A stretch of 64,000 nucleotides of DNA. Origin: Pichia kudriavzevii (Eukaryota > Ascomycota > Pichiomycetes > Pichiales > Pichiaceae). This document shows positions 1,961 to 22,189 of this stretch, one piece after another. Positions within the stretch are counted from its first letter, which is position 1; every line of letters begins with the position of its first letter. Location of the stretch: the NCBI RefSeq assembly GCF_003054445.1, contig NC_042508.1, positions 1 through 64,000 of the forward strand, given 5' to 3'. The position numbers and the translations under genes are program-made. The notes under the pieces are model-generated. The model ran no database searches. It was given only the letters and a program-made list of their open reading frames with translations, and had not been told where the DNA came from.

Positions 1961-3065
1961 CACAGTATGTTTTCCAATGCTATTCCTAAGATAAATAAGA
2001 TGCTATCTATAAAGTCCTTTATAATTTGTTTCAATTTAACATCCTTTAACATAGCTACTAGATATCATAATAGGCACTATTCTGACAGAATTTATTTAAT
2101 ATGATGCTTAGTAAAATTGAAAAACCATGTGTCTCAATCAACACCCAAGAAATAAGAAAGTTATTTCTGTAGTAGAGTCGAGGAAACACTTATATATTGC
2201 TTGGGATTTTTCTTATCTTACTTATTCTTCTTTTTTTTTTTGGCGGAAAAGAAAGATTTCTCTTTATTGCAAGCTGTGCATTTTTTTGTTATCTATGTCA
2301 ACACTGACAAAGTACATATAATCACAAAAAATCCAATCTATGTATGTCGATACGTACCAGAAAACATTCTAGAGAAGAAAAAAATGGGAACTTACCACAT
2401 ACGCTCTTCTTTTATTACATCTAAGTTTGTTTTTTTGATTGTCTGATAAACACGAAAAGATAAAAACTGCGTTTCAAAACACTTTTGGAAAACATTCGTA
2501 ATCACTGGCAATTCCGATACCACAACTGCATGATGCCTACATAGAATCAAAAACATTTTGCTTTGCTTGTCTCTTGAAAGCTCCAATGCTAAATATTCCG
2601 AAATACCACATAAAACAGTTAGTCATTATAGCATATCTTTCACAAAGAGTCGATTTGTGCTGCCACCTTCGACTTCCGTATTCTCAAGCTATAACACAAT
2701 TACATATATATCACCAGAATATATTCTGCATTTCATACCCAATTCATTGCCCCCTAAAGGGTTGCAAAACCAAAAAGACCTGAAGAGATAAGCCCTAAAC
2801 CAGAATGGTAAGATAACTCCGTAACCCGATTCTACTTGTGGACGTTTATTGTCTGTGTGTGTGTGTGTGTGTGTGTGGTGTAAAATTTCCGCACTTGTTA
2901 TCTAAACTATTCCTGCCTAGATAACAACACTCGACAGGTGTATGATGAACTATATCCTACTATAAATAGTATGTTTATCTCGCCAGAGTCGACCGGTACG
3001 CCACTATGTATAGTAGGATGCCCAGAAGAAGCAGTGTGCATTATAGCAAATAAGCAACAGACATC
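1961..3065. other. Non-coding stretch and promoter of the FAD oxidase
   Basis: Bases 1961-2780 hold no recognisable gene; a few 60-80 codon frames have no family signature. A (TG)n microsatellite lies at 2854-2877. The last 200 bases look like a promoter for the oxidase at 3066: TTTCCGCA at 2886-2893, GATA-type sites in both orientations (GTTATCT at 2897-2903, AGATAAC at 2919-2925), and a TATA box (TATAAATA, 2961-2968) about 100 bases before the ATG. Confidence 0.6.
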
Positions 3066-4478
3066 ATGGATAAAGATAAGAGGATCATTGTTCTTGGGGC
3101 TGGTGTGATGGGATTGTCAACTACTCTATCCCTCTTGGAGAATGGTTACAAGGACATTTCACTCTACGACAAACGGGATTATTTTGCAAAGAGGTACAGC
3201 TACTTTGATGGATGCGACAGTCCCTCTTCAGACCTTAACAAGATCTTCCGCTCTAGTTATGGTGCCGAAGTTCACTACCAAAAAATGTCGTTCTTGAGCC
3301 GTGAAAAGTTCCAGAGGTGGAACAGAGAGATTGCGGAGCAGAAATGGGAAGGCGGCGAGCCAATATACCTAAACACAGGCAATGTTCACCTCACCGATAG
3401 AGGTGAATTGCCAGAGTTTGAAAGGTTGACGTTGGAAAACATGCCGGAGCACTCAATTCATATCACAGATGCAGATGCAGGTGAAAGGGCAGTTAAACAA
3501 GGCCTCGATCCATGTTCAGTAGATCCTTTCGACATGAGACGGAAAGGTAAAAACCTACAAGGTGTTTTGGACACTACCGGTGGTATGACGTTGGCTGACA
3601 AATCGTGCCGATGGATATTGGAAAAGTGCATAGCTATGGGCAAAGACCGACTAAAGACGTTTTTCGGTGACTGCGGCACGTTTAAGGAGCTTTTATTAGA
3701 ATTCAACAGCAAAACACTGAAAAGAAAATGTGTTGGAATTAAAACCCTTGACAATGAGGCACATAAGTGCGATCACTTAATTGTCTGTGTAGGGCCATGG
3801 ACAACCGAAGTTATCCCCGAAGCTAGTGAGAAGCTGGAAGCTACAGGCGGTTCCGTCTGCTTGATAAAGATTACCGACGAGAAGCTCAAGGAAAGATTCA
3901 ACCAGTCTAAATTTCCAACGTGGACATATAAAGTAAGAGATGGCGCAATAGGAGGCCTATACGGTTTCCCCTGTACAGGAGGTTATCTGAAAATTGGGTA
4001 TAGGGGTTTGAAGTGGATAAACCCCCAAAATGGCCTCAACTCTAAAGTTAAGACCAAATGGAGCCCGGATGAGACCGAGACTAACATTCCGCTTTTTGCA
4101 TTGAAGCAGATAAAAAACTTTGTTAGAGAACACATACCGGAGATACCGAAAATCACAATGACAAGATTGTGCTGGTACTCGGACAGCGAAGATAACGATT
4201 ATTTAATATCCTTCTGTCCATATTATGAAGAGAACTCTGTATTTGTGATGGGCGGCGATTCTGGCCATGCATTTATGATGTTAGGTAGCATCGGGGATGT
4301 TGCAGTTGGAATTATCAATGGTACGGGCAACAAATTGTTTAAAGATTTGTTTTCCTGGGAGAGAGAAAGACCGAAATTGAATCCGATTAATGGAGGAAAG
4401 GAGGATCCACGGTGTTTGGAGGATACAGTAATGGCTACACCTAAGGATTGGTACATCCATGAACCACCGAAGTTGTAA
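3066..4478 (+). CDS. FAD-dependent amine/amino-acid oxidase (sarcosine oxidase/amadoriase-like)
   Basis: This 470-residue protein belongs to the DAO/glycine-oxidase fold. Residues 7-30 carry the dinucleotide-binding motif VLGAGVMGLS. RLCWYSDSEDND places Cys369 where the monomeric sarcosine oxidase/fructosyl-amine oxidase group binds FAD covalently, and GGDSGHAFMMLGSIG is the C-terminal FAD loop of the same group. Family members oxidise secondary amines such as sarcosine, pipecolate or fructosyl amino acids, releasing hydrogen peroxide; the substrate cannot be read from the sequence. The C-terminus PKL resembles a weak PTS1, which would suit a peroxisomal oxidase. The promoter carries TTCCGCA and GATA sites, and a racemase gene follows in the same direction, which together suggest use of an amino acid or amine as a nitrogen source. 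Confidence 0.85.
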   Translation: MDKDKRIIVLGAGVMGLSTTLSLLENGYKDISLYDKRDYFAKRYSYFDGCDSPSSDLNKIFRSSYGAEVHYQKMSFLSREKFQRWNREIAEQKWEGGEPIYLNTGNVHLTDRGELPEFERLTLENMPEHSIHITDADAGERAVKQGLDPCSVDPFDMRRKGKNLQGVLDTTGGMTLADKSCRWILEKCIAMGKDRLKTFFGDCGTFKELLLEFNSKTLKRKCVGIKTLDNEAHKCDHLIVCVGPWTTEVIPEASEKLEATGGSVCLIKITDEKLKERFNQSKFPTWTYKVRDGAIGGLYGFPCTGGYLKIGYRGLKWINPQNGLNSKVKTKWSPDETETNIPLFALKQIKNFVREHIPEIPKITMTRLCWYSDSEDNDYLISFCPYYEENSVFVMGGDSGHAFMMLGSIGDVAVGIINGTGNKLFKDLFSWERERPKLNPINGGKEDPRCLEDTVMATPKDWYIHEPPKL

Positions 4479-4845
4479 AATCTGATAGTATCTAGCGGAT
4501 ATTTTTATAGTTGACAATCCTAAGTATTACACCAAAAAAATGATCCTAGAAATCCTCAGAAATAGTGTTTGTAAAATCTTTGGACTACCAGCTGTACCTT
4601 TTTTTTTACAAGAATGGGTATCAATTTAAAGTGTAAAGTCTTTCGTGGCATTGTTAAAATTTCCGCCAATAACAACCTAACACGGCAAAACATGACGTGC
4701 ATGGTTGCATGTTTCTAAAACATGGAAGTCTGAAAGATAAGCTACAACTGTTGGCTTAGTGTAATGCATTGTGTTATAACAGTGGACGACAATTCTGCTT
4801 AAAGGTAAGTGAGGTAATCTCCTAAACCAATGTGTTCATTTGGCG
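4479..4845. promoter_or_regulatory. Intergenic region upstream of the racemase
   Basis: This 367-base spacer separates the oxidase stop from the racemase ATG. It contains TTTCCGCCAATAAC at 4660-4673, a one-base variant of the TTCCGCA word next to a GATA-like ATAAC. A consensus-like splice donor (GTAAGT) occurs at 4805-4810, but I found no matching TACTAAC branch site or acceptor, so no intron is called. Confidence 0.4.
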
Positions 4846-5643
4846 ATGTGCCATCATTTGAAAACAGGTGGTTCCCCGCCGTTAGGAGCATTGTGTTTGG
4901 ACTACACAGAGGACATCCACCGACCACCCGGAGATGTGATTGTTTCTGAGACGTATACCTTTCCCGTTATACAAGAAAAGGTTATAGGGGCAACTCTGTG
5001 GAAGGTAGTTGACTCTCAGAGTTTTTCAGACAGCTATGTTCAGCTTTTTGTCGACGCTTGCAGAGTTTTGCAAAAGAAAGGTTGCATTGGCATAATTACC
5101 TCTTGTGGATTTCTAGCACAGATACAGGAGAGACTGGCGGAGCAGATCGAAGTACCAATAGCCACCAGTAGCTTGTTGCAAGTGCCTTATGTTTTAGCTA
5201 TAATAGGACCTAGAAAGAAAGTCGGGGTCATTACTTTTGACGAGGCTAGATTGAGTGAAACTCATTTCAATGGTGTTGGAATCAACAACGAGATGCTGAA
5301 GAGAGTAATTGTTACTGGCTGCCACCCCAAAGGTGCATTGCATAGGATCATTACTCGTGGAGATCCATACATTGCAGAAGAAGTAAAGCAAGAACTGGTA
5401 AATTTAGCAACCGAGCTTGTTCAGAAGAACCAAGATATTGGGGCTATAGTATTGGAGTGTACACAGATGCCTCCGTACTCTGAGGCTATACAACAAGCAA
5501 CGAAGCTTCCTGTATTTGATGGAGTTACCATGGTGAAGTGGTTCTACTCTGGTTTGAATAGTATGGCTGTACCTGATGACAAGAACAGACAAGATGCATT
5601 AAGGAGAAGGCTAAGAAGTAGCAAGGAAGAAAAACCGCCCTAG
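4846..5643 (+). CDS. Asp/Glu/hydantoin racemase-family protein
   Basis: The 265-residue product fits the Asp/Glu racemase superfamily, in which two cysteines act as paired acid/base catalysts. Both are present: Cys87 in ITSCGFLA and Cys205 in LECTQMPP. The N-terminal GALCLD followed by HRPPGDV matches fungal members, which supports the ATG at 4846; the frame continues two codons further up to a TTG that is unlikely to be used. Family members racemise amino acids, hydantoins or related compounds. Its position after an FAD amine oxidase suggests that the pair handles stereoisomers of one nitrogen compound; this is inference. No targeting signal is visible, so a cytosolic location is likely. Confidence 0.8.
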   Translation: MCHHLKTGGSPPLGALCLDYTEDIHRPPGDVIVSETYTFPVIQEKVIGATLWKVVDSQSFSDSYVQLFVDACRVLQKKGCIGIITSCGFLAQIQERLAEQIEVPIATSSLLQVPYVLAIIGPRKKVGVITFDEARLSETHFNGVGINNEMLKRVIVTGCHPKGALHRIITRGDPYIAEEVKQELVNLATELVQKNQDIGAIVLECTQMPPYSEAIQQATKLPVFDGVTMVKWFYSGLNSMAVPDDKNRQDALRRRLRSSKEEKPP

Positions 5644-6057
5644 CAATCTTCTGGCAAGCCTGACACTAATGTCAAGGTTCGATTTTTTTTTTTTGAATAT
5701 CATTGTATCCTAAGTATGTACCGACTACGTACTGCCTCCTAGGTAGAGCAACTGCTCTGTCACCGAGTCCTTATCTACTATTTTCACACACTCCCGATGT
5801 GCTTATCTGCGACGGTAATCTCCCAAATAGGAAAACCGTGAAAACTTCCGCTCTTTTGTGTCTGCCCCGGAGAATATCCACCACTATTTTGATATCAGTG
5901 CTTTTTTTCAGAGATAAGAGGTTAGAGCAATGTTCAAAAGGTATTTTCGGGCAAACTGGGAATGGCTAAAACGATAACAACAACAACAACAACATAAGGG
6001 TAAAAGCTGGATGAAAAAGCAAAACTGGAATTGGTTGAATATGGCGCATTCTGGAAT
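5644..6057. promoter_or_regulatory. Upstream region of the Zn2Cys6 regulator gene
   Basis: The stretch holds no gene. A CTTCCGCT word, a partial match to the shared TTCCGCA element, lies at 5845-5852. An (AAC)n repeat at about 5976-5993 lies in the likely 5' untranslated region. I see no clear TATA box. Confidence 0.4.
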
Positions 6058-6105
6058 ATGGTTATTCTTGGTATTGCTACAACTGAACACTGTGTTGTAG
6101 AAAAC

Positions 6106-8217
6106 ATGGAGAAACAGAACTCAGGTATGGACAAGAAAAAGCCAACAATATCTATCAATGTATTCAAGCCTGAAAAACAAAACGTACAGTTGAAAAGACC
6201 TTTGAGGACCCGTCGTTCAGGAGGCAAGCATCAGATGGCGGCATGTTGTGCATGTAAGAAAAAAAGAAAGAAATGTGACGGTAAGTATCCGGTATGTTCT
6301 ACATGTGAAAGATTGGGATTGGAATGTACAATGATATATCCACCAAATGGGAAAGAAATCAAGCGTGATTATTTGGAAACATTAGAGAAATCAGTCAAGG
6401 AGCTAACATCAAAACTGGACATCCTTCAATCAAAAAATACCACTGGCGCCGAAACTATATCTAATAGAGTTGCTCGTACTTTTGAAACCAAATTCTCAAC
6501 TTCACAAGTAAAGTATCCTCCGACTTTGAACAAAGACAATGTATTGGCAGAGGAAGTTGGTTTCATTACATTGGGGGCCGGAGGCGAGCCATGTTATATT
6601 GGCGAAACATCGGCATATTCGATTGCCAAAGTGATTTCCACTTCATTAACATGCCCTCCCTTTGAAGAACCACATCCATGGAAAGACGGCGGCTTCAGTT
6701 TGAATTTGGAGCTTCCCTTTAGTCATCCTGATATCAAATCAGGGAGCGAGCTTCTATCCTATTACAAGGAATCTGTTCACTGTCAATATCCATTCTTGGA
6801 TTGGAATTATGTGGAAGAATGCTTCAATTTGGTACTTACAGAAAAGAGTCAAGAACAAGTTCCCAATTTCTTTATTTACATGATCTTTGCTATCAGCTCT
6901 CAACTACATGATGTTTCCAACAAAATTCAAACAAGTCAGTATACAAGAGCATACTATTCTAAGGCCTTCCAGTATTCCAACAGGACAATCGAATCCCCTA
7001 CCATTTATGCAGTTCAGGCATTTCTACTAATAGCGGTATTTTCTCAAAAAATGCCTGATAGTTCTTCAGGGTGGCAGGCTATAGGTTTGGCAATTAGGAC
7101 TGCCGTTATTTTAGGGCTTCACCGAAAACCATACACTAGAAATAACGAGGAGCTAACCGCACATCAGCTTCAAGTACAAGACCTAAAATCTAGGATCTTC
7201 TGGTCTGCATATGGCATCGAAAGAATAAATGGTCTAGTTTTGGGTAGGCCTTTTAGTATTTCGGATATAGACATCGATGCACCCTTTTCTATCGAAAGTT
7301 GTGAGACAAGGGTCGCCTGCCATGTAATCAAACTTCGCAGGATTCAATCTAATATTTACACGTTTATTTATAAACCGTTGCATTTGACAGATCAACTAGA
7401 GAATATGGAAACAACAAGAGTTCAGATTTTGCTTGAACTGAATGACTGGATCCTTACTTTCCCATTTAAGAATGATGCCTCTTCGACGTTCGAAACCAAC
7501 AACTGGTCGTTGATTTCATATCACAACTCTATTCTTCTACTATTGAAGCCAATCTTTCTAGAAGTTTCCAAAAGGAAAAAAGGCTCATCCAAAGAACACC
7601 TGGAATGGTTTAAGGTGTTTACCGAAAGCGCTTCGGCAATTTGTATAAACTACAAGAACATGTATTTGAAGGAAAAAATGAGCTTCACTTGGTTAGCTAT
7701 GCACTGTTGTTTTGTTTCTGGGATCTCATTTTTGTATTGCATATGGCTGGATACGGAGCTAAAAGTGCTGAAATGGAAGAGGAAAAGTCTGATATACGAG
7801 ACAATAAGTGCTTGTCAGACAGTTTTATACGTATTAGCCGAAAGATGGAATTCAGCACTGAGGTTTAGAGACACTTTTGAAAGACTCTCTTCAATAGTTA
7901 AAGCTGCAATAGAATCCTCTTGTGAGGTCAGAGGTTTATCCTCACCCAGAACTAATGATATATCAAGTTCAAGAGTCTTTATCGAGGGAAGCATTAGCAT
8001 CGATTCCTACTTATCATGCGAAAAATACCGGGATATGGTTAAACACATCCATTCATTCAGCGATGAAAATAAAACAGGTATCAAACCTAATGTTGGTGGA
8101 ACCATCAACGAGGAAGATAGCCTGGAAAACCTCCTGAATATTTTTGACCATTCCGGGGATCAGTACCTACGAGATTTGTTTGACGAATTAGAGGACAACG
8201 TTCTCATGATCTCCTAA
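6106..8217 (+). CDS. Zn2Cys6 fungal transcription factor
   Basis: The product (703 residues from this ATG) has a Gal4-type binuclear zinc cluster at residues 47-74: CCACKKKRKKCDG, then C-x2-C-x6-C. A short coiled-coil-like linker (YLETLEKSVKELTSKLDIL) follows at about residues 88-106. The middle of the protein fits the fungal-specific transcription factor domain, including SGWQAIGLAIRTAVILGLHR and the RIFWSAYGIER block. Such factors usually bind CGG triplets, and TTCCGCA (CGGAA on the other strand) recurs in nearby promoters, so it may be the local regulator of this cluster; that is inference. An in-frame ATG at 6058 would add 16 residues. The 6106 ATG was chosen because the extra segment has no family signature. 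Confidence 0.88.
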   Translation: MEKQNSGMDKKKPTISINVFKPEKQNVQLKRPLRTRRSGGKHQMAACCACKKKRKKCDGKYPVCSTCERLGLECTMIYPPNGKEIKRDYLETLEKSVKELTSKLDILQSKNTTGAETISNRVARTFETKFSTSQVKYPPTLNKDNVLAEEVGFITLGAGGEPCYIGETSAYSIAKVISTSLTCPPFEEPHPWKDGGFSLNLELPFSHPDIKSGSELLSYYKESVHCQYPFLDWNYVEECFNLVLTEKSQEQVPNFFIYMIFAISSQLHDVSNKIQTSQYTRAYYSKAFQYSNRTIESPTIYAVQAFLLIAVFSQKMPDSSSGWQAIGLAIRTAVILGLHRKPYTRNNEELTAHQLQVQDLKSRIFWSAYGIERINGLVLGRPFSISDIDIDAPFSIESCETRVACHVIKLRRIQSNIYTFIYKPLHLTDQLENMETTRVQILLELNDWILTFPFKNDASSTFETNNWSLISYHNSILLLLKPIFLEVSKRKKGSSKEHLEWFKVFTESASAICINYKNMYLKEKMSFTWLAMHCCFVSGISFLYCIWLDTELKVLKWKRKSLIYETISACQTVLYVLAERWNSALRFRDTFERLSSIVKAAIESSCEVRGLSSPRTNDISSSRVFIEGSISIDSYLSCEKYRDMVKHIHSFSDENKTGIKPNVGGTINEEDSLENLLNIFDHSGDQYLRDLFDELEDNVLMIS

Positions 8218-8319
8218 TATATACTTCGTTCATGTAAAAGTTATTTAGTTTTAGCTTGAGGCCTCTAACAGACCAACCACCAAGTAAAAAAGAAAAAGTG
8301 GCTGTAATAAAAAAGAATT

Positions 8320-9830
8320 CTATCCTTGAAGTTTGTCCCAGTGAGATGCTCTTAGTTTTTTCCCAACAACAAATAACACAAAGGGGATAGGTATCATACC
8401 TAAAGCAACAAATCCAATTAGGCTTGAACCCCAGTGAACCCCCAGGTTAACGAATAATTGCTTTGCAAACAAAGGAAAGATAGCGGCAAAGGCGGATCTC
8501 ATGAACGTGTTAGCAGCAATAGCAGAAGCTGCGTGTATTGGATAGGAATCAACCAGATAATTAATACAGCCCTGGAATATAGTTATAAAGCCGGCCCCAA
8601 TCATTGAAACACCAATGCATGGAACAATCCAGTGGATATTGGCATCACAGGTCCATCCAAAAACAAAGATCCCCACTGGCATCATCCAGCCAAGCATCAT
8701 CATTATGGGGAACCTCTGTTCAGGAATTGCCTCCCCTTTGTTGCTCCTCACAATTTCCAAATACTTGAGTGCCCATAAAATGTTCCCAATACAGCCAAAT
8801 ACAACTCCTAGAAATAATGAAACATTTGGAACTTCCGTAATCGTTCCCGTCCAGCCCCTCGATAATTCAAAAGCAGTCGAGATGTTGGTTATCATTAGGT
8901 AGAAGAGACCGTAAACATAACTTGCAAACAATGCCATGGTAAACACAACCGGTATGGACAGCATTTCAAATGGCCTTACAACATGTAAAAGTAGCATCCC
9001 TTTGAAGTCCAAATAAACTGTATCTGCTTTAGTGTGTAGCAGCCACTTATCTTCTTTGATTCTGTACCACGTTACCAGTTTTTGCAAGGTTTTATTCTCA
9101 AAAGTCTCCTCTGTGAACAAGTACATCAAAACAAACAGAACTAACTGCCCTAATCCACAAAACCATTGCGTGATTCTCCAGGATTCCACACTGCTATTAC
9201 TATTCGTCAAAAGGGAGCTAACAACTGGCCCAAAAGAAGCACCATTAGCAACAAAACATGCATATATTGCAAATGCAACCCCTCTAAAGGAGGGATCCCA
9301 AAGGTCTGCTAAAACACCACCAGCGGAGACAATTGGGGCGCCAGCAAAGAATCCAGCAAAAAATCTGCAAGTCATCAAAGAAGACACATTGAACGAAATG
9401 GCTGTAGCAAACGTAAACATACAAGAAAAAAAAATGGGATCAGCACCGCCGGCTTTCTACCATAAACTTCGGAGAGGGGTGCAAATATCATGGGGCCAAA
9501 TGCAATACCAACAATGTACAATGATACAGTCAAGACCGCCACTTCACTTTTGATGTTAAACTTTTCTCTCATTCTGTCAAAAAAGTAACCAGAGGATGTT
9601 GTGGTGGAATTGAACTGTGCTGCAAATGTCACAAAGCTGTAACATATTGTGTATGTCATTTTTTTCCTGAAGGGCCAGTTCCGTGTTCTCAAAGTAGACT
9701 CCACAGCAAAAGTCACCAGACCATTTTCATTAACCTGGATGTTTTCATCAATCGCAACAACAGAAAGATCCGTGTCAGATAATACACTAATATTTGCACT
9801 TGAAATAGGTTGCTTTTCCTGGTCAACCAT
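8320..9830 (-). pseudogene. DHA1-family MFS multidrug/polyamine antiporter gene, frameshifted
   Basis: Two overlapping minus-strand frames make up one 12-helix drug:H+ antiporter-1 protein. The first (9830 to about 9425) has a cytosolic N-terminus, the first helices and the DHA1 signature FGPMIFAPLSEVYGRK. The second (about 9425 to 8320) holds the remaining helices, beginning around ATAISFNVSSLMTCRFFAGF and ending VGKKLRASHWDKLQG. The frame changes at a run of nine A (plus strand, about 9426-9434); one T more or two fewer on the coding strand would restore it. This could be a true inactivating slip, a polymorphism or a sequencing error. The rest of the gene is free of stops, so any loss is recent. 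It is divergent from the Dal5-type permease gene. Confidence 0.75.
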
Positions 9831-10379
9831 GAAAGGATCTTTTCTTGACTATCCGTTTCTTTATCAAAGTCAAACACAAGAAAAAAAAACGCTACCTAGG
9901 TGTCTAGATGATCAAAAGCAAAAGGCAGCTAGTTTATAGGGTGGTAAATCATATCAAAACCGTCTTTTGAATTTACCATGAATGAAACACACAGTCACCT
10001 CTATTGATGAAATTTGCTCAAAGAAATGACCCTCTCTCCTCCTTCCCCACAACCGGAACTTTTACCATTACCACCTAAGGTGTGAGTTTCCATGCAATTG
10101 CTATCGATGTTTTTCTCTGTAACAAAATTTTGCAAAACTTCCGCACCCCCTGATAAGTTGAGGGGCGGTATTTGGCGACGTCTAAATGAGGTTTAATTCT
10201 TGATAACGACTTGAGCCTAGCTGCAGAAGATAGTAGATATACTTTATCAGGAAAACAATGCAAAGTTAGATTGTTATATTACACTGCTGCTATCTTTTGG
10301 AACAGTATAAAATGCCTTGCATACACAATCCTTGGATTTAGCTATTTCTCTATGATGGCACTACAGGGAGTATCAACAA
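9831..10379. promoter_or_regulatory. Divergent promoter between the DHA1 and Dal5-type transporter genes
   Basis: This 549-base spacer is shared by two divergent transporter genes. A composite element lies at 10138-10157: CTTCCGCA, then CCCCCT, then GATAAG. A TATA box for the plus-strand gene (TATAAA, 10306-10311) lies 70 bases before its ATG. On the minus strand TATAAA (plus 9933-9938) lies about 100 bases before the DHA1 start. No gene is seen inside. Confidence 0.55.
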
Positions 10380-11963
10380 ATGCCAGAGAAATTGCAGAAT
10401 AACGAAAAAGGAGGTCTATATACGGTGGAAGTTTCAAGTTTGGACGACTGTGATCCTGTGATCTCCACTGTTGTTGCCTTGAATGGGAAGAAGATTGAAG
10501 TTCATCAACAGGATGCTGATGTAGCAATGCAATATATTGATGATATTGCCGATCTGGAGATGGATCCCGACTTTGAAAGGAAAGTCCTAAGGAAAATCGA
10601 CTACGCAATTTTGCCTGTGATCATAGCTCTAATGTCATGTCAGTTGATGGATAAGACAACCAACTCTTATGCGTCAATTATGGGCCTGCAAGAAAGTTTG
10701 AATATGAGTTTGAGAGAGTATAGTTGGGTAGGGTCCTCGTTCTATTTTGGCTATTTGATTTTTCAGTACCCGGCAAACTTATTACTGCAAAAACTACCAC
10801 TCTCCAAAACACTCTCCATAGCAGTCATCTGCTGGGGTGTAGTTTTAATGTGTCATGCTGCCTGTACCGATGCAGCAGGATTTTTAGTTTGTCGAGTATT
10901 TCTAGGTGTTTTCGAAGGGTTTATGAATCCAGCATATATCTTACTAACTTCTCAGTGGTGGAGGAAGGAGGAACAGTTTATAAGAACCTGTGTTTGGTGG
11001 GGTATGCAAGGTTTTGGTACTATTTTGGGATCCGGCATTGCATATGGGTTGCAGGTTCATCGAGCCGGGTATCAAACATTCCCATCTTGGAAATGCGTTT
11101 ACGTCATAACTGGTTGCATTACTTTATGCCTTGGCTTTGTCAGCTACCTTCATATACCAGACGTTCCTACAAAAGCATGGTTTTTGAGCGAAAAGGAGAA
11201 ACTCTATGTTGTTGAAAGGGCAAAGGAAAACCAACAAGGTTTTGGTAACCAAAAATTTAAATGGAAGCAAGGCAAAGAAGCTATTTTTGACCCGTGTACC
11301 TACATCTTTTTTGTCTATGGAATTTCATACGCAATTCCGAACGGAGGCTTCAATAACTTTGGATCCATATTGTTAAAGGATGATTTTGGATTCTCAACAG
11401 CCGATGCGTTGCTAATGAATATGCCAGGCGGAGGAATTGATATTATTTTCCCTTTATGTGTTGCACTCTTTAATTACTACTTGCTTAAAAACCAGAGGTT
11501 GGTATCTTGTGCTATAGTGAATACCACAGTGGTTGTTGGAATGTGTCTATTAAATTTTACAGACAGTAGAGGTTCGAGGTTGGCTGGATACCTATCATTC
11601 TACATGGCAACAGCTGTATCGGCAGGAATATGCTCAACCATAGCATCGAATATTGCCGGATCTACCAAGAAGGTGGTAGTTAACACATTCTTTCTAGTAG
11701 GCTATTGTGCCGGCAATATAATTGGTCCACAGACATTTAACGCTAAACAAGCACCGGGATACTCAGGCGCCAAAGCTGCAATGCTCGCCTCTTTTGCCAT
11801 TGGTACGTGTCTCATAATTGCTCTTTATGTTATTTACACGTGTCGTAATAAGAAGAAGGATGAAATAATCCAATCTTTAGGTGAGAAGTATTCAATTCCT
11901 GACAATATCGCTTTTGCAGATTTAACTGACTTTGAAAACCCTGGATTTAGGTACTCGTTATAG
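10380..11963 (+). CDS. Dal5-type MFS permease (anion:cation symporter family)
   Basis: The 527-residue protein fits the allantoate/nicotinate/pantothenate permease group of the major facilitator superfamily. The N-terminal helix block starts RKIDYAILPVIIALMSCQLM, followed by DKTTNSYASIMGLQ, a motif typical of Dal5 relatives. Next come SSFYFGYLIFQYPANLLLQK and the CRVFLGVFEGFMNPAYILLT motif, then a second six-helix bundle and a charged cytosolic tail. Such carriers import carboxylates such as allantoate, ureidosuccinate or vitamins with protons across the plasma membrane; the substrate is not known. The TTCCGCA plus GATAAG promoter and its neighbours suggest uptake of the compound that the oxidase and racemase process. 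Confidence 0.88.
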   Translation: MPEKLQNNEKGGLYTVEVSSLDDCDPVISTVVALNGKKIEVHQQDADVAMQYIDDIADLEMDPDFERKVLRKIDYAILPVIIALMSCQLMDKTTNSYASIMGLQESLNMSLREYSWVGSSFYFGYLIFQYPANLLLQKLPLSKTLSIAVICWGVVLMCHAACTDAAGFLVCRVFLGVFEGFMNPAYILLTSQWWRKEEQFIRTCVWWGMQGFGTILGSGIAYGLQVHRAGYQTFPSWKCVYVITGCITLCLGFVSYLHIPDVPTKAWFLSEKEKLYVVERAKENQQGFGNQKFKWKQGKEAIFDPCTYIFFVYGISYAIPNGGFNNFGSILLKDDFGFSTADALLMNMPGGGIDIIFPLCVALFNYYLLKNQRLVSCAIVNTTVVVGMCLLNFTDSRGSRLAGYLSFYMATAVSAGICSTIASNIAGSTKKVVVNTFFLVGYCAGNIIGPQTFNAKQAPGYSGAKAAMLASFAIGTCLIIALYVIYTCRNKKKDEIIQSLGEKYSIPDNIAFADLTDFENPGFRYSL

Positions 11964-12282
11964 TTTTGGCTTTTGCACAGTCCTACTTTGTAGACACGTC
12001 CCTCAATATTGTTTTTAACTAGTTTAGTGATTTAATGGATTTCCTATGTGTCTTGTAGATGATCATGATACGTCGTACTTTTGAAAATAAAAAGAAAAAA
12101 ATGTAAGAAAGCTCGTACAAACGTGTTTTCCTTGGTCAATACTAAAACATTAGGAATGCTGTGTGAATTAGTGTTCATAATTTAGAGGAAAAAAGAAGTA
12201 CAAAAGTGGATTGGTAAAAAATATACCGCCATTCCACAGTCTAAATAAGAGTATCAAAAACTAACTTATAATGAATAACGTC
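11964..12282. other. Convergent 3' intergenic region
   Basis: This A/T-rich spacer lies between the stops of the convergent Dal5-type and dehydrogenase genes. Nothing beyond likely polyadenylation sequence is visible. Confidence 0.5.
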
Positions 12283-13299
12283 CTAAGAAAAAAATTTATC
12301 CGTAATAGGTCTTTTTTGAGGAAGACTTACTAGTCCCCTGTTTTCCTTTAACTTTAGTTGAGTCGCCTTGAGTAGATTGTACAAGACAGTCAAAGTTGGA
12401 GTTTCCACGTTAAGTTCATTTGCGACAATCAAAAGATTGCCCAAGATGACCTCCAGCTCGATCGGATTACCCTTCTCAACGTCAACAAGCATAGACGGCT
12501 TGAAGTAATCACCATCATCCGAGTGAACAACTGAGTTGATAACATCAGCAGGTAATTCAACGCCATCCGCTTTGGCAACCTTGATGACCTCACGCATCGC
12601 TGGAACAGAGACAGCCTCTAATGCACCTGAATATTCCAACCTACCAGTATCGACTCTAGTCAAAGCACATGCGGTATTGAGCGTCGCATTATAGACCAAT
12701 TTTCTGTATCTGTACCACTTAACATCGGGAAAGTAAGAAATCGTGTTTCTGTCATTACTATACAAGCTGACAAACTCTTTAGCCTTTTCCTCTTGCTCCT
12801 CCTTACTAAAGGTTGGGTTGGAAAAGTAGCTGATCAAACACTTGTCATTTTGGGTCTGGCTGATTACTCCATTATGGTTATGCGAGCCGATATGAGAGAC
12901 ACCTGATAAGCAAAAATTATTCGGATATTTGGCAATAAAGGGACGCCCCAAATCAAATCCATTTTGGATCAGAACAATAGTGGTTTTGCCCGGTGTGATC
13001 ACCGGTGCGGCAACTTCTTCAGGTTTGACAATATCTGGTAAGTTCTTCGTTGTGATAACAACATAGTCGTAGTCCCCATTGGCCGACGCAGCTTCAACCG
13101 TTGGGTAAATATGATCTGGTTTCCAGTTTTCAACTTTTCCATAATCGCATGAGTTGATTTCCCAACCAGCCTCTTTGACCCTGGGATAATCACTTTTAAC
13201 AACCACCGAAACTGTGGTCTTGCCAGTGTATTTAAGCCCGTAGGCTACAATGGTACCCACACCACCGGTACCTATCAAAAGCGTCCTTGGCAGTTGCAT
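12283..13299 (-). CDS. Ketopantoate reductase (PanE/ApbA)-like dehydrogenase
   Basis: The 338-residue product matches the two-domain PanE/ApbA family. An N-terminal Rossmann motif (IGTGGVGTI, residues 9-17) leads into DYDYVVITTKNLPD. The C-terminal helical domain carries the catalytic lysine block RKLVYNATLNTACAL and the SMLVDVEKGNPIELE segment that holds the substrate-binding glutamate. Classical members reduce 2-dehydropantoate to pantoate with NADPH, but many fungal paralogues act on other 2-oxo acids. Its place in the accessory cluster, with two TTCCGCA words 160-210 bases upstream, suggests a catabolic 2-oxo-acid reductase rather than the housekeeping pantothenate enzyme; this is inference. 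Confidence 0.82.
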   Translation of the reverse strand: MQLPRTLLIGTGGVGTIVAYGLKYTGKTTVSVVVKSDYPRVKEAGWEINSCDYGKVENWKPDHIYPTVEAASANGDYDYVVITTKNLPDIVKPEEVAAPVITPGKTTIVLIQNGFDLGRPFIAKYPNNFCLSGVSHIGSHNHNGVISQTQNDKCLISYFSNPTFSKEEQEEKAKEFVSLYSNDRNTISYFPDVKWYRYRKLVYNATLNTACALTRVDTGRLEYSGALEAVSVPAMREVIKVAKADGVELPADVINSVVHSDDGDYFKPSMLVDVEKGNPIELEVILGNLLIVANELNVETPTLTVLYNLLKATQLKLKENRGLVSLPQKRPITDKFFS

Positions 13300-14131
13300 G
13301 ACAATTATAGATCTCTGATTTTCGTTTGGGATTGAGAAGCAAGTCCATAGAATTCTCCATGGGACACGAAATACGTCTGCCTTTAAATATTATTGTTTAT
13401 TAGTGGTTAGGTGGTTGTGGCATACCCCTTGCAATCTCTGTCTCTTATTTACAGAAATGCGGAAAGATACGCTTGTTGAAATTTTCCCGTTTTGGTAATA
13501 TTTCCGCATATTCAGGATCTGATAGTCAGGGTGTCTAAATGTGAATATAAACACTCTTGGGAGTGTCTTGTTATCGCAAACCAAACATAAGTATCTTCAG
13601 TGAACTTAGGATATATTGCCACTATGACGTTTTAGAGCGTAACTTTGTAGTTCTGCATTGGGATGTTATCTTGAAGAAAATAGGAGCAAGAAATATGCAG
13701 TGCACTACCATTGGTAGTCTATTCGCAATCCATTGGCAGCCTTTTCTTTTATAAAACCATCATTCTGAGTTAGGAATCATATCTGGAGTATAATGTTTAA
13801 TCTATATATAATGTCTTTATATTTGATTCCAAATGTATAAGCTAAAAGAATACTGTCGAATGAAAATAACTTTTTCTCCCCTGCTATGCAGTTGCTTAAT
13901 TTGGTTTGAGTTGGCATGGATACACTAAACGTGTGACTCATTCGTAGAAGGCCTTCCTCGTTTTGAACTAAATAACAAAGTTTTTTTTTTTCGGTAGTAT
14001 AAAACCTAAGCTATAGAAATAAGAATTGTTTGCTTGCTTTAAAATCGTAAAAAAAAAGAGAAAGTTTAGGGAGGGTGTAGAAGGAAAATGCCATAAACAC
14101 TAAAAATAAACCATCTTGAAAGGGAAGACTA
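13300..14131. promoter_or_regulatory. Promoter of the KPR-like gene and 3' flank of THI5
   Basis: Close to the KPR-like gene lie two TTTCCGCA words in inverted orientation: TGCGGAAA at 13458-13465 and TTTCCGCA at 13501-13508, followed by GATAG at 13521-13525. The remaining 600 bases towards THI5 are A/T-rich, with a T-run near 13980 and no coding or RNA gene that I can support. Confidence 0.5.
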
Positions 14132-15148
14132 TTAAATGGCAAGTCTGTGGAATCCACCATTCTTTCTGACTTCTTCTTGGTGGACTGCCATTAATCTTTG
14201 TGCTTCGGTGGGATCAACAGTCTCAGCAGGTTCTTCACCAGGAACTAAGGCATTTGTATAGTTGGCCTTGTAGTCAGGTGGTAAAATTTCCAATCTCTTA
14301 CCATAGTTGGTGACCTTTTGCCAGTCTCGGTCAACATTAAACAACGATGCTGAAAAGTAAGCATAGCATCTTTCAAACTGTTTGTATGAGAGACTGTTGT
14401 TCAATTGAGGTTTAAAGTCAACATAGGTTTCCCAACAATCCTGTGGTGCAGCAAGAATTTCGGTAGTTGCTTTTTTGATTGCCTTCAAGAAAGACCTGAC
14501 TTTCTCTGTGTTATTCTTAAGAAACTCATCGTTGGCAATGTAGCAAATAGAGCAGAAACAGCAGCAGCCTAAGCAGGCAACCCGATCAATCCTCATCATT
14601 TGGACTTCTTGTTCATCCAAACCCTTTTGTTTACAGTATTCTTCCAGCTCAACTTGCTGGATACACTCAATACCAATACCACCATCGATCTTCCCCTCGA
14701 TGATGTACTTTGCGACATTCATACCACATCTGACAGCGGTATAGTCACTCTCCTTGAGACCATGGTATTTGCAGAGTTCGTCTAATTGAATCTTACCAAA
14801 CTCCCCGACGTAGCCGATTTTCTTTCCCTTAATGGTTGAGAAATCATTAGTGATTCCACTCGATTTAAGATATAGAATACCTGTGAAGGGTTCATCCAAC
14901 AAGGATGCAACCGAAGTTACAGGAAAGCCACGTGCTTTGGCCGCAAGTGTATGAATCATTGCCTTCAAACCCATGTCAATCTTACCCGAACCAATCAACT
15001 CGGTCACATCTGAAGGATTCGAAGGCTCCAAGATAGCAATATCGAGTCCTTCATCCTTAAAGTAACCCTTAATTTGGGCATAGTAGATGGGGATATGGTA
15101 TGGGGCAGGTTGCCAGTTTAGAGAGAAGGTGATTTTGTTAGTACTCAT
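14132..15148 (-). CDS. THI5: HMP-P synthase, thiamine pyrimidine synthesis
   Basis: The 338-residue protein is a close match to yeast Thi5, which makes 4-amino-5-hydroxymethyl-2-methylpyrimidine phosphate from its own active-site histidine and bound pyridoxal phosphate. It is a single-turnover enzyme. Diagnostic residues are present: Lys62 (PLP Schiff base) and His66 (pyrimidine donor) in [16 protein letters not shown], and the iron-binding CCCFC motif in [12 protein letters not shown]. The fold is a periplasmic-binding-protein-like two-lobe structure. It is divergent from THI4, so pyrimidine and thiazole genes share one upstream region. PLP could be supplied by SNZ1/SNO1 at 42-44 kb. Expression is likely repressed by thiamine, as in other yeasts. 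Confidence 0.96.
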
Positions 15149-16384
15149 TGTTGGTTGTGTTTGATACTGGCCAGGAAAAGGATGTCTATTTACTTAACTT
15201 TGAGTGATAAATAGAGGGAGATAATAAGCCTTTAAATAGCCAAAACCAAAAAGACAACTCCCCGTTTATATCATTAACAAATGAAGCTGACTGGCAATGG
15301 AAGATTACCTTCAAAGTAGAAGTTAACGTAGTTATTAAACACCTGAAGTATTATTATCTTTTGCTTCGGCGTTCAATTTCAAGGGCTAGTCCTCTACATC
15401 TGTCTACGTTTCCTCCTGAAAATAGTCCCAGATTTTTCTGGAGACTTTTTTCGAATGTGTACACCGTCCTCTACCCACCGTTCTCATTGTTCTTACGGAT
15501 TACTTGCCACCGACGTTGTAGTTTCTTATACCAACATCAACACGACCAGCTACAAATGGGTAAACATTGAACAATCGGCATGTGCTTTTGTTACGTTGGA
15601 TACCCCCTCTTGAGGTCCCGGAATTTAGACAAAACACCAAACATAGCCTGCGGTAAATTCCAAGGAACCGTTGTGAGTCATCGGAGACTACTTTCCCGAA
15701 TTTTTTTATGCACGTACTAAAAAAATTAGACAATAGGAAATCACTTTCTCGGACAATGGTACCACTCTAGTTTGATTGTTAGCTTCCCGGGTGTAAGTTA
15801 TTGTTACGGCATTTTAGAAATAGGAGAAACCTTTGCACAGGAACAATGCACAAACTAAAGAATTCTCCGGGATAGAAAATTTAACTTTCCCTGCTAATAA
15901 TATCGTCTTGACTAATGTTTTATGAAGGGTGTATTCTCCAGTAGCTTCAAAGACTGTATTGGTGTTCGGACGACATTGGCTCGAAGAGGTTTGGTAGGAG
16001 CAGAACTATACGGCTTGCCTCTTGCGTGGGTGTGGGTGGGACATATATCTGCATAGAGTCGGTTGAACTTGTGGGGAGTGCTATATATGGGTCCCGTACT
16101 GGCAAAGGAGGTTGTACATAATGTTGTTACCCAATCAAAATGTTAATCCCTCAAGAAATATTTACTTTGACAACTCTCGGCTGTTGGGCCAGTAGCCTCT
16201 AGAATCCTTTAGAAAAGGCTATTGTGTTGTTGTATTGACGATTTATTAATTTTGTAGGATATATAAGGAAACCTGTTTTCCACAACCTACTCCTCCATTG
16301 GCAGCATTTCCCAGTACAAAAAGAAAATCCTTCCATTTTTCCACACAACACAACTAAAAACAACAGTTTATACAGACAAGTAAA
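15149..16384. promoter_or_regulatory. THI5/THI4 divergent promoter region
   Basis: This 1.24-kb spacer has no supported gene; the short frames in it lack family features. On the THI4 side TATATAA at 16260-16266 lies about 118 bases before the ATG, and a second TATA-like CTATATATGG lies at 16081-16090. I looked for a TPP riboswitch, as filamentous fungi have in thiamine genes, and found no CTGAGA-type core. Confidence 0.5.
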
Positions 16385-17428
<1,044 letters not shown>

Positions 17429-17641: not shown

Positions 17642-20600
17642 CTACTTTCTCTGAAAATTCTTGGCCAATAGGACAAAGGGAGTTTTCAAGCTGTATTTTC
17701 TGATCCTGAAAAAGTAATGAAGACTCATCATGGCACATAAGTTGAAGCAGATGTAAACACAGAAAAACCCAACGTTTCTCCACCTATGACTGTATGACAT
17801 ACCAACTGTCTTTAAGTATTCATCACCAGAAGCATACTGACAAACAGCGCAGTCTGCTGTCGCATTGGGATTATCAACATAACCACTGTTATCTAAGAAA
17901 TAACTTTGAAGATATTCGCCACACGTAGACCCGCTTGGAGGTTGGAGATAATTATACTCAGTTGCGGAACAAGTAACTTTACGCTCATGAAGTACTAGAG
18001 ATAGGAAATTATCAACAAAGTATGTCAATGGGGAAAGTCTCCACATAAACTTCCAAAATCCTGGTAACAAATGAGGATTTTGAAGAACACCACAGAATGC
18101 AATAACAAAACTCCACCCCAAACCAGTCAAAACATTGGCAGAGGGTAAATCTGGAGCAGCATAAACAATTGTGAGGGAAAATGAAATATAATATATTTGG
18201 AAGAAAATACAATAGGTGAACCACCACATACCACACCTAGAAGCAGAGTTATCAAGTTGAATAGGGAAGTACCAGCAGATGAAGTAGATTGTGGAGAAAC
18301 AAACGCAAAATGGAATTTCTGTCAAGAATTGTGAAATCATTAGCAAAGACCAGTGGAAGGTGTTGGACTTCGACTCTCTAACCTCGTATAATTGACGTGA
18401 CGCAATAGCCTTAGCTTGGATTTGGTTCATCATTGGAGAGGCGATAATAACAGCCAATAAACAAGCAAACATAACATCTTGCATTCCACTAGCGTTATGT
18501 TTACTGTTCCAAAAAGTGAAACCAACAACTAGTCCAGCAAGAAGAAACAAAATAAACTTAGCCATGATATACTGCAATCCTCTGTAGAATTGCAAAAAAG
18601 TTCTTTTTAGAACTTCACGAAACTGAACATAGTATGGAGCAGCAAATTTGGTGTGTAGCTCGCTGTTGTCAACAGATGGAAGCTTTGACGTTTCTTCAAT
18701 CAGTTGTTCAATATCCTTAGTGACTTTTATATACTCCTCGGATTGACACCACTTCTCATACCAATTTTCGGTTGTGGATATAGATCCAGCACCAATAGCT
18801 TCAAGAATATATTCAGCTGGATTTTCCGAAGGCAAACACTTCCTAGCGCCTTGCTTTTCAAAATAGTCTAATAAAGTACTTGAATTTTCCCCAATTTCTC
18901 CAAAATAGACGGTTTGACCACCTGTTTTCAAGAGCAATAACCGATCAAACTCCTCAAACAATGTGGCCGAAGGTTGATGGATTGTGCATAAAATTGCCTG
19001 TCCGGCCCGTGCAAGGTCTTTCAGAACTTGAACAATTGCCCATGATGATTGCGAGTCTAAACCAGAGGTAGGTTCATCCAAAAATAATAGCAAAGATGGT
19101 TTGGCAACCATTTCTGTAGCAATCGACAATTTCTTTCTTTGTTCAACATTTAAGCCATAACCGGCCGCACCAACAATAGAATCGGAGTACTCCTCCATAC
19201 GTAGAATCCGAATAACCTCATCAACATAGTCAATCTTTTCTTTATCAGGAACACTGTGTGGTCTTCTTAACCTAGCACTGAAAATCAAAGACTCTCTAAC
19301 AGTCAACTCCGCAATATGAAGATCCTGCTGTTGAACATAACCGGTTCTTCGTTCAAACGAGGAGTCGATCGGTTTACCATTTATCAACATATCACCACTA
19401 ACAACGCCGACATCAACACGCCTGGATAACACATTCAACAATGTAGTTTTGCCCGCTCCAGATTCACCCATCAATGCAGTCAAAGTACCTGGCAAAACAT
19501 AACCTTGGACATTTTCTAGCAACTTCCTAGCCTCTCCTTCATAAGGAACCACATAATCAACATTCTTCCACATCAAGATATCTTGTGAGCCTAATCGCTC
19601 ATTTACGCCATCGTGTGATGACTGAGATACCACAACATCAGTCTCGATTTGAATGTCACCCTTTTCCTTAAGCACTGTTTGCGCTTCCAAGTCATTGTCA
19701 TTAGTCTCCGAAAAACCAATTGCATCGAGAAGAGAAGAGGGAATCCTTGCTCCGTGAACAAACAACAACTTGTCGGCAGATGCTGAAATTGGATTGTAGA
19801 TTTCCACCAAAATAACGTTCAATGTCAAATAGCCACACAAAAATGCAAACATAATACCCAAGTTTCTCCATAAATGAGGGTAAACGTACTGGAATGCAAG
19901 CTTCAAGTAAATCATACCGTCAACATCATTTTTACCACCATAAAGTTCCTTCGACTCAGCAGCTCCAACAAACCCACACACTTGATTTGTTAGTTGGTTA
20001 ATATTAGAATATGATGGCCCATGTGGAATTAATTGACTTTCAGCACAAGGCATAACACGGCCGTGAAACTCATTCAAAATCATTGCCTCAAAGGCATATA
20101 GAACGGGGTTACAATAAGAGAACCATTTGAACCACCAGTGCATATTTGGTCTTTGAATCATATAAGAAGAATAAACCACCATGGACATCATAGTAAGACC
20201 GCTAATACCATTGGCAGCCGCAACATTAGGCATCAAAGAAGCAAGCAATGTAAATAATGATGTGATTGTTGGGACAACCAGGTTGATAAACAAGAAATAA
20301 ATAAAATATGCACCTGGCTGCCTTTTCATGTTGGTTAGAAAATAAAGTATCAATGAAAAACTGGTAATTGCAATCAAACGGACGGGATAAGAAACCATCT
20401 GTTTAGCCAAGAGTTCTGCAGAAGGACGGTACATGGTGTAGGAAATTTGTTTATTTAGTATTGGCTTATCCATAAACAATGCTGCAATTTCCGCCAATGC
20501 CATAATACAAAAATAAAGGCAAGAAAAAAATAAAACACCACCTCTAGAAAAGGCACCAATAGTAGTCTGTGGAGTGTTGTAGAAAAGTGATCCAATAATC

Positions 20601-22189
20601 AACGACTGAAATGTGGCAGCAAACATAAGCGTGAGAGTATATGCTTTATTATTGACTATATTCTGAAATCTCCTTTGACAGCAAAGCTTCAATTGTTGAG
20701 GAAAATTGATTGTATAAGGAGACGTAGAAGAGGTCCATCTTTGTTTCTCGGTTTCTCTAACGCTATTGAAAACCATTTCAGTTTCCTTTGAGTCTGCAAT
20801 TTTTATTTTTTCATCAACAGTTTTTAGCAGCTTTGCATACTCCGGAGAGTTTTTCCAATATTCTTCGAATTCATCGGCAGTCTGCGGAACTCTGGATATG
20901 TCAAATCCTGGCTTGATGTGTCTTGCAAGAGGGTCAGTGACAGCGGTTAGAAATTCAGATGAAGTTTGTCTTTCAGGTTTGTGATAGCCCATTCGGTTGA
21001 AATAACCAACCGCTTCGCCTATGGGGCCAAAGTAAATTTGACGACCAAGATAAAGAACTGTAACGTAGTCAAACAGTTGGTAGATATTCTCCGAAGCTTG
21101 GTATATGGTAACAACGGATGTGTTCTCTGTGATGTTCGTAGAGGTTCTTAAGGCCTCAACAAACTCTAGGGCAGTTGACGCATCCAAGCCTCTTGTAGCG
21201 TTATCATAGCAAAACACAGTACCCCTAGTCACCATAGCTTCAGCAATAGAAACTCTTTTTCTTTGACCTCCGGAAATACCCCTTACAAAATCGTTACCAA
21301 CAAGGGTTTTTTCAACGTGTTTTAAACCAAACACAGTTAAATATAAGTCTTTAATAACATTGATGTATTCTTTTCTCGAGATGTTATTGAGTCTAACGAC
21401 AGGTGTCTTACACCCAATCGCAAAGTTCAAAGTTTGTTCCACCGTTAAGAATGGGAAATGAACGTCCAGTTCTGGATTGTAAATTAATTGATCCGTGTGT
21501 TTTTTGAACATTTCTTCTGAAGGGATGCCACCATAAAAGATTTCGCCTTCATAGCCGGTATACGTTTTTGTTTCACCAGAGAGTATCTTTAATAATGAGG
21601 AACATCCAGCTCCTGGTCTACCAAGAACCAACGTCATTGAACCCGCTTCCAAATAACCAGAGGCGCCCTTAACGATGTTTCTTGATTTTGGCAGTTTCTT
21701 GAAATCAAAGGAGTTCTTTTTCCTTTCTCTTCTGTTTCTAATCAAAGAGTAAAAAGGGAAAAAGACATCAGAAACATCCTTAACGACAGAAGCAGATGTA
21801 TTTTTACCGGTGATCGTTAAATCCTTAAATACGACCTCACAATTTTTCTTTTGAATACCATTCCTAAGATTCCCACGAGCCATGAACTCTAAAATAGCTT
21901 TCAAGTCAAAGTCATTCTCATTAATTTTAAAAGATTTCATGCTTTCTGCATTCATGGTGGATAAAGTCTTGGAGAGCGTGGAGAGTCTCTTCAGAATTGG
22001 ATCACTATCTTTGCCGTTGCTGGCATTGAATTCTGTTTCATGTGTGATTGCCCTGTAGATGTTGCTGATGTTTTCACTAAGCTCGTCTTCATCTGCATTA
22101 TTTTCAAATTCAGTTTTATTTTCTTTCCCAGTTTCCGCCATAGAGAATGTTTCGTATTTTCCGTTGCTCGAAGCACTACTCGTTGACAT
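17642..22189 (-). CDS. SNQ2: PDR-type full-size ABC multidrug transporter
   Basis: The 1515-residue protein has the reverse (NBD-TMD)2 layout of fungal pleiotropic drug resistance pumps. NBD1 shows the degenerate PDR half: Walker A GRPGAGCSS (about residue 190, Cys in place of Lys), signature GISGGQRKRVS and NATRGLDAST. NBD2 has a full Walker A GESGAGKTTLLN (about 906), the degenerate signature LNVEQRKKLS and Walker B LLLFLDEPTSGLDSQ. Six-helix membrane domains follow each NBD. The wording of NBD2 (ERRTGYVQQQDLHIAELTVR) is closer to Snq2 than to Pdr5/Cdr1. It should export hydrophobic toxicants across the plasma membrane. The promoter holds an inverted CGGA/TCCG element suited to a zinc-cluster activator. 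Confidence 0.93.
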   Translation of the reverse strand: MSTSSASSNGKYETFSMAETGKENKTEFENNADEDELSENISNIYRAITHETEFNASNGKDSDPILKRLSTLSKTLSTMNAESMKSFKINENDFDLKAILEFMARGNLRNGIQKKNCEVVFKDLTITGKNTSASVVKDVSDVFFPFYSLIRNRRERKKNSFDFKKLPKSRNIVKGASGYLEAGSMTLVLGRPGAGCSSLLKILSGETKTYTGYEGEIFYGGIPSEEMFKKHTDQLIYNPELDVHFPFLTVEQTLNFAIGCKTPVVRLNNISRKEYINVIKDLYLTVFGLKHVEKTLVGNDFVRGISGGQRKRVSIAEAMVTRGTVFCYDNATRGLDASTALEFVEALRTSTNITENTSVVTIYQASENIYQLFDYVTVLYLGRQIYFGPIGEAVGYFNRMGYHKPERQTSSEFLTAVTDPLARHIKPGFDISRVPQTADEFEEYWKNSPEYAKLLKTVDEKIKIADSKETEMVFNSVRETEKQRWTSSTSPYTINFPQQLKLCCQRRFQNIVNNKAYTLTLMFAATFQSLIIGSLFYNTPQTTIGAFSRGGVLFFSCLYFCIMALAEIAALFMDKPILNKQISYTMYRPSAELLAKQMVSYPVRLIAITSFSLILYFLTNMKRQPGAYFIYFLFINLVVPTITSLFTLLASLMPNVAAANGISGLTMMSMVVYSSYMIQRPNMHWWFKWFSYCNPVLYAFEAMILNEFHGRVMPCAESQLIPHGPSYSNINQLTNQVCGFVGAAESKELYGGKNDVDGMIYLKLAFQYVYPHLWRNLGIMFAFLCGYLTLNVILVEIYNPISASADKLLFVHGARIPSSLLDAIGFSETNDNDLEAQTVLKEKGDIQIETDVVVSQSSHDGVNERLGSQDILMWKNVDYVVPYEGEARKLLENVQGYVLPGTLTALMGESGAGKTTLLNVLSRRVDVGVVSGDMLINGKPIDSSFERRTGYVQQQDLHIAELTVRESLIFSARLRRPHSVPDKEKIDYVDEVIRILRMEEYSDSIVGAAGYGLNVEQRKKLSIATEMVAKPSLLLFLDEPTSGLDSQSSWAIVQVLKDLARAGQAILCTIHQPSATLFEEFDRLLLLKTGGQTVYFGEIGENSSTLLDYFEKQGARKCLPSENPAEYILEAIGAGSISTTENWYEKWCQSEEYIKVTKDIEQLIEETSKLPSVDNSELHTKFAAPYYVQFREVLKRTFLQFYRGLQYIMAKFILFLLAGLVVGFTFWNSKHNASGMQDVMFACLLAVIIASPMMNQIQAKAIASRQLYEVRESKSNTFHWSLLMISQFLTEIPFCVCFSTIYFICWYFPIQLDNSASRCGMWWFTYCIFFQIYYISFSLTIVYAAPDLPSANVLTGLGWSFVIAFCGVLQNPHLLPGFWKFMWRLSPLTYFVDNFLSLVLHERKVTCSATEYNYLQPPSGSTCGEYLQSYFLDNSGYVDNPNATADCAVCQYASGDEYLKTVGMSYSHRWRNVGFFCVYICFNLCAMMSLHYFFRIRKYSLKTPFVLLAKNFQRK

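Follow-up and report, generated by a model that had tools for sequence, protein, structure and literature searches.

A conserved subtelomeric gene cluster in Pichia kudriavzevii with a candidate role in the catabolism of a chiral, amino-acid-like nitrogen compound

In the yeast Pichia kudriavzevii, five neighboring genes close to the left end of chromosome 3 code for a flavin adenine dinucleotide (FAD) oxidase, a racemase family protein, a Zn2Cys6 transcription factor, a Dal5-type permease, and a KPR-like reductase. They are a real conserved unit and, by the co-location of non-homologous genes, a probable fungal metabolic gene cluster. The stretch analyzed (the window) comprises the initial 64 kb of contig C3 in a genome of 10.79 Mb and five contigs. 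We consider it probable, from the gene families and their neighborhoods, that the cluster is catabolic and serves a chiral, amino-acid-like nitrogen compound, which would be imported, racemized, oxidized in the peroxisome, and reduced as an oxo acid. The original prediction, made from the DNA letters of the window, had placed six gene families side by side here, the sixth being a frameshifted DHA1 exporter. All six were found in the list of open reading frames (ORFs) and by Pfam searches, as follows.

3066 to 4478, plus strand: FAD oxidase (PF01266; ORF list, Pfam)
4846 to 5643, plus strand: racemase family protein (PF01177, Asp/Glu racemase family; ORF list, Pfam, NCBIfam)
6058 to 8217, plus strand: Zn2Cys6 transcription factor (PF00172 and PF04082; Pfam), candidate pathway-specific regulator
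8320 to 9420, minus strand: DHA1-like MFS transporter, C-terminal piece (MFS_1 profile 74-347; ORF list, Pfam, NCBIfam)
9375 to 9830, minus strand: DHA1-like MFS transporter, N-terminal piece (MFS_1 profile 2-74; ORF list, Pfam, NCBIfam)
10380 to 11963, plus strand: Dal5-type MFS permease, candidate importer (MFS_1 by Pfam; relatives named allantoate permease, co-located)
12283 to 13299, minus strand: KPR-like (ApbA/PanE; PF02558 and PF08546) 2-oxo-acid reductase (Pfam, NCBIfam; co-located relatives)

The six genes span 3066-13299, and the ORF list holds no further ATG-started ORF of at least 100 amino acids between them. The frameshift was confirmed in that the DHA1-like gene occupies two overlapping frames (8320-9830) with matches that tile the MFS profile; the split may be a real mutation or an assembly fault. 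The best NCBIfam match of the Dal5-type permease, TIGR00893, is below its cut-off. No amidohydrolase, amidase, carbamoylase, or synthase gene was found among the cluster ORFs (ORF list and Pfam).

The comparison with other fungi is based on sequence searches with the racemase (best 120 of 3675 matches), with the oxidase (best 120 of 181), and with a joined query of the Zn2Cys6 factor, the Dal5-type permease, and the KPR-like reductase (best 120 of 342); the statements that follow apply to the matches listed. Gene order was read from locus tags and contig size, not from DNA. Positional locus tags for at least two of the five families were available for 13 species, and the genes are tightly grouped in 10 of them.

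Pichia californica: transcription factor C6P40_001650, racemase C6P40_001651, oxidase 001653, Dal5 001654
P. inconspicua: KPR 003128, transcription factor 003131
Martiniozyma asiatica: oxidases 021510 and 021520, Dal5 021530, racemase 021550
Candida boidinii: racemase g248, oxidase g251
Saccharomycopsis crataegensis: oxidase 006070, KPR 006100, racemase 006140
Lachancea mirantina: KPR 0B09010, oxidase 09032, Dal5 09054, racemase 09098
L. lanzarotensis: KPR 09802, oxidase 09824, Dal5 09846
Priceomyces carsonii: oxidase 5057, KPR 5058, racemase 5059
Zygotorulaspora mrakii: racemase 0F06280, KPR 0F06300
Capronia coronata: racemase 07017, oxidase 07019

The remaining three species are exceptions. 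The genes of Lachancea nothofagi are spread across two chromosomes, those of Brettanomyces naardenensis have tags far apart on a single contig, and the racemase (10768) and oxidase (12161) of Fusarium decemcellulare are not close together. In the case of P. californica, the only KPR gene among the best 120 of 342 matches (C6P40_002921) is away from the cluster; thus, the KPR-like gene may be optional.

Contig sizes gave a similar view, where equal-sized contigs were taken, by inference, as the same contig, and each row stands for a sequence cluster. At least two families share each of 45 contig sizes, 28 of them below 70 kb; the sizes 16824, 36647, and 58907 each have all five families, and 12345 has four. 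The yeast racemase rows number 49; for 38 of them the contig is at least 8 kb long, and 28 of these 38 have its size in common with another family (17 of 21 for contigs of 8-70 kb). The linkage of racemase and oxidase is present in some filamentous ascomycetes (rows on equal-sized contigs in Fusarium beomiforme and Talaromyces proteolyticus) and absent in others (contigs of differing size in Aspergillus venezuelensis, A. stella-maris, and A. oleicola). A scan of viral contigs gave no relatives. The proposed conservation of co-location therefore holds for the five families, with scattering in 3 of the 13 tagged species. Scattered homologs in close relatives, the opposite outcome, are not the pattern, as the five families adjoin one another in several Pichiaceae and beyond.

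The racemase is 99% identical to a P. kudriavzevii protein in the sequence search and scores above the curated cut-off of NCBIfam PRK07475 (246.2 vs 231 bits), a model that itself carries the name 'hypothetical protein'. Its residues C87 and C205, which we take to be the catalytic-type cysteines, are invariant across 30 aligned rows. This PF01177/PRK07475 protein is predicted to be a cofactor-independent two-cysteine racemase. In the racemase tree, a branch with full support (100/100) separates 36 chosen rows, regarded as fungal, from 44 other rows; on the fungal side, the filamentous rows are separate from the budding-yeast rows. A recent bacterial origin was rejected, since the fungal rows split off at the 100/100 branch and no donor was seen. 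A single origin of the racemase in fungi would be compatible with this tree.

The predicted FAD amine or amino-acid oxidase was confirmed as an FAD oxidase (PF01266); a classical D-amino-acid oxidase was rejected because the closest relatives are amadoriases and sarcosine oxidase. The protein has the fold of the fructosyl amine oxidase/monomeric sarcosine oxidase superfamily. Its nearest solved relatives are fructosyl amine/peptide oxidases, followed by sarcosine oxidase, in structure lists where the absence of a match excludes nothing. It belongs to a deep branch of the amadoriase/sarcosine-oxidase fold. C369 is aligned with a cysteine of 6a6v, and the motif R[LMIV]CW is found in 117 of 120 relatives among the matches listed; we take the cysteine of R-x-C-W to be FAD-linking. 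The fold and this cysteine motif are shared with the fungal fructosyl amine/peptide oxidases and sarcosine oxidase, whereas identity to these enzymes is 20-23%, and most yeasts have another residue at the aligned lysine after S-G-H-x-F, presumably an active-site residue of fructosyl amine oxidases. This position is K in 6a6v and M404 in the window oxidase, which in this respect differs from amadoriases proper; of the 44 yeast orthologs, 36 have M and 8 have K. Both Martiniozyma asiatica (DAMA08_021510 and _021520) and Brettanomyces naardenensis (DEKNAAC104491 and 104726) have a pair of cluster-type oxidases that differ at this position, with M in one protein and K in the other; such pairs within one species possibly reflect two substrates.

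The C-terminus of 25 of the 44 yeast orthologs is PKL, SKL, or AKL. Counted as peroxisomal targeting signals of type 1 (PTS1), a motif that we assume to direct proteins to the peroxisomal matrix, 29 orthologs have a canonical form, 11 a near variant, and 4 neither; the PKL of the window oxidase is a weak variant. An inverted repeat (2955-3018) is located 5' of the oxidase gene and consists of TCCTACTATA and its reverse complement, 44 bases apart; these are the only two copies in the window.

We then compared the neighborhoods of prokaryotic racemase relatives (best 80 of at least 578 confirmed, with flanks), using ORF calls from a simple script that were grouped into clusters. The neighbors were named from one representative each; for the dehydrogenase and the binding protein, the matches fall short of the curated cut-offs. 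The near and far regions comprise similar amounts of DNA (521 vs 508 kb). Because the loci are mutually related and the ORF caller recovered the racemase itself in only 65-66 of the 80, the following counts are not independent. A DadA-like FAD gene (PF01266; D-amino-acid-dehydrogenase-like) is present in 36 of the 80 proteobacterial loci, and within 3.5 kb in 30. Also within 3.5 kb are an amino-acid-type binding protein (27/80), an ABC ATPase (17/80), an amino-acid-type permease (17/80), a LysR regulator (12/80), SDR (10/80), thiamine diphosphate (ThDP) enzymes (7/80 and 3/80), and a 2-hydroxyacid dehydrogenase (2/80). No Dal5-like or KPR-like ORF was detected in the 80 loci by phmmer at E 0.001. 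The near neighbors formed 188 clusters (124 representatives listed, 94 aligned), and the Pfam results cover the 25 most frequent of 128 families; thus, single hydantoinase genes could be missed.

These proteobacterial loci resemble the yeast cluster in that a related racemase is near a PF01266 FAD amino-acid oxidoreductase and an amino-acid-type transporter, in some cases with SDR, ThDP, or 2-hydroxyacid dehydrogenase genes. They differ in that the oxidoreductase is DadA-like, not amadoriase-like, the transporter is of the ABC type, and the regulators are LysR proteins. The suggested logic of import, stereo-inversion, oxidation, and reduction is echoed by the bacterial association.

In the pathway that we favor, the Dal5-type permease, judged by its family, would import the compound. 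The racemase would interconvert its mirror-image forms, as its family and cysteines suggest, so that both could be used. The FAD oxidase, putatively in peroxisomes, would release the amine (in the form of ammonia, an amine, or an amino acid) and yield hydrogen peroxide; the KPR-like enzyme would then turn the carbonyl product, probably a 2-oxo acid, into a hydroxy acid. The conserved co-location of the Zn2Cys6 factor suggests that it turns the gene set on; in P. californica, its relative (C6P40_001650) directly adjoins the racemase gene (C6P40_001651). In our opinion, the oxidase fold would suit an N-substituted or imino acid better than a plain D-amino acid. More tentatively, the cluster might encode a nitrogen-scavenging pathway of many budding yeasts whose racemase-oxidase core extends to some filamentous ascomycetes. 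In it, a cofactor-independent racemase would feed a peroxisomal amadoriase-fold oxidase with a substrate class new to that fold, e.g. an N-substituted amino acid such as an opine. As racemase relatives accompany a different FAD oxidoreductase in proteobacteria, the pairing of racemase and oxidoreductase would have arisen twice.

The promoters may point to nitrogen control. The cluster promoters, 2528 bp in all, contain 6 copies of GATAAG, vs 6 in 12626 bp of intergenic sequence elsewhere in the window (binomial p 0.008), and 4 of 1000 first-order Markov shuffles reach 6. The motif is absent upstream of the KPR-like gene, and the enrichment is suggestive only, because several motifs were examined before GATAAG. 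The GATA-factor sites hint weakly at nitrogen repression. Nothing convincing was found in the cluster promoters as a common regulator motif (paired CGG triplets, shared 8-11-mers).

Among other explanations, salvage of cyclic ureides or hydantoins seems rather improbable. In this view, the racemase, like allantoin racemase, would act on a hydantoin-like ring, and a ureide would enter through the Dal5-type permease. Against this, the cluster ORFs lack the hydrolase families named above, and the four amidohydrolase-family places found in the genome are on C1, C2, and C4. The other PF01177 gene of the genome is separate, at C1:798281, and we regard it as the counterpart of Dcg1. In bacteria, the association is with amino-acid-type genes, although rare hydantoinase genes were possibly missed. 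The yeast DAL (allantoin) cluster likewise serves nitrogen catabolism and includes a permease and a PF01177 protein (Dcg1). The present cluster differs in having no hydrolase, a racemase of the PRK07475 subfamily, the other PF01177 gene elsewhere, and an added oxidase and KPR-like reductase. A DAL-like allantoin cluster was rejected, since no allantoinase, allantoicase, or other hydrolase is among the ORFs.

Breakdown of Amadori compounds is unlikely in our judgment. The oxidase would deglycate fructosyl amino acids of browned or fermented food, and the other genes would process the freed amino acid and dicarbonyl; the nearest solved structures, fructosyl amine and peptide oxidases, agree with this, and the residue at position 404 has been described above. 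We regard with equal doubt a small biosynthetic or detoxifying cluster, in which the racemase, oxidase, and reductase would tailor a metabolite exported by the DHA1-like transporter. An exporter-type MFS gene is indeed present, and OpaE of Aspergillus ustus, termed in the available text the only well-characterized fungal member of the racemase superfamily, works in oxepinamide biosynthesis as an epimerase (PMC12661438). However, OpaE is of the allantoin-hydantoin subfamily and acts on a peptide product, whereas the window racemase is of the PRK07475 type in a catabolic-looking cluster. Furthermore, there is no synthase gene among the cluster ORFs, the DHA1-like gene is in two frames, the transporter that recurs in other species is the Dal5-type permease, and the bacterial context favors catabolism. 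Finally, a chance gathering of unrelated genes in a fast-changing subtelomere, for which the shared repeat element at this site and the scattered genes of some species would speak, is very improbable and was rejected for the five genes, given that they are together in many species and on many short contigs (three contig sizes with all five); the DHA1 gene may be such a chance neighbor.

The subtelomeric position itself, also part of the original prediction, was borne out by two features at the left end of the window.

2 to 104: telomeric 28-bp repeat array, chromosome 3L end (tandem repeat finding, TRF)
105 to 1243: subtelomeric element, pieces common to the C4 and C5 ends, mostly 93-98% identity (genome comparison)

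The 28-bp unit is also found at the ends of contigs C2, C4, and C5. It agrees with the telomere repeat that was published for the P. kudriavzevii chromosome ends 2L, 3L, 4L, 4R, 5L, and 5R (PMC6053246, main text). The array and the element up to about 1243 therefore put the cluster start about 3 kb from the telomere repeats.

A look-alike block is located at C2:1298790-1308684. It contains an amadoriase-like oxidase that ends in PKL and is 29% identical to that of the cluster, a different Zn2Cys6 factor with a short match only, a Dal5 paralog (57% identical), and an ABC transporter of the PDR type that shares 59% identity with its window counterpart at 17642-22189; GATAAG was not found in its promoters. 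A recent duplicate of the cluster was rejected, because the two oxidases are far apart on the tree; the genome's two other amadoriase-like oxidases are both very distant from the cluster oxidase. Tandem KPR-like paralogs (C2:2046789-2049307) are 43-44% identical to the cluster gene, and a third (C2:1953821) is 58% identical. A tandem pair of PF01266 genes at C3:999386-1001917 has open frames of 360 and 346 codons, which is as long as classical D-amino-acid oxidases; with such genes, plain D-amino acids could be used without need of the cluster. In Cryptococcus, D-amino-acid oxidase genes are used for D-amino acids (PMC4489021, available text).

Adjoining the cluster, at 14132-17428, a THI5/NMT1-type gene is accompanied by a Thi4 match, the only full-length one in the genome. 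The THI4 start codon is uncertain, as the frame is open further upstream. A further pair at 42279-44297 is presumably a SNO/SNZ-like vitamin B6 pair, named from its ORF sequences.

The claim that no yeast cluster with this content has been described agrees with our literature search on such clusters, on P. kudriavzevii subtelomeric clusters, and on yeast D-amino-acid use, which found no description among titles and abstract starts, in a coverage outside which most subscription papers lie. The main text of the P. kudriavzevii genome paper (PMC6053246) does not contain 'subtelomer', 'gene cluster', or 'amino acid oxidase', and PMC2715888 contains 'Dal5' twice and none of 'racemase', 'oxidase', and 'hydantoin'. 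The hxn nicotinate cluster of Aspergillus nidulans is likewise a fungal nitrogen-catabolic cluster with its own regulator (PMC8478523, PMC5746545); 'racemase' occurs 0 times in the available text of both papers.

The cluster gives partners to three yeast proteins, namely, the PRK07475 racemase, the deep-branch oxidase of the amadoriase/sarcosine-oxidase fold, and the KPR-like reductase. The bacterial pairing of racemase and oxidoreductase offers a concrete prediction of the chemistry. If one substrate were found, it would indicate what the entire set does across many yeasts, among them an industrial and opportunistic species.

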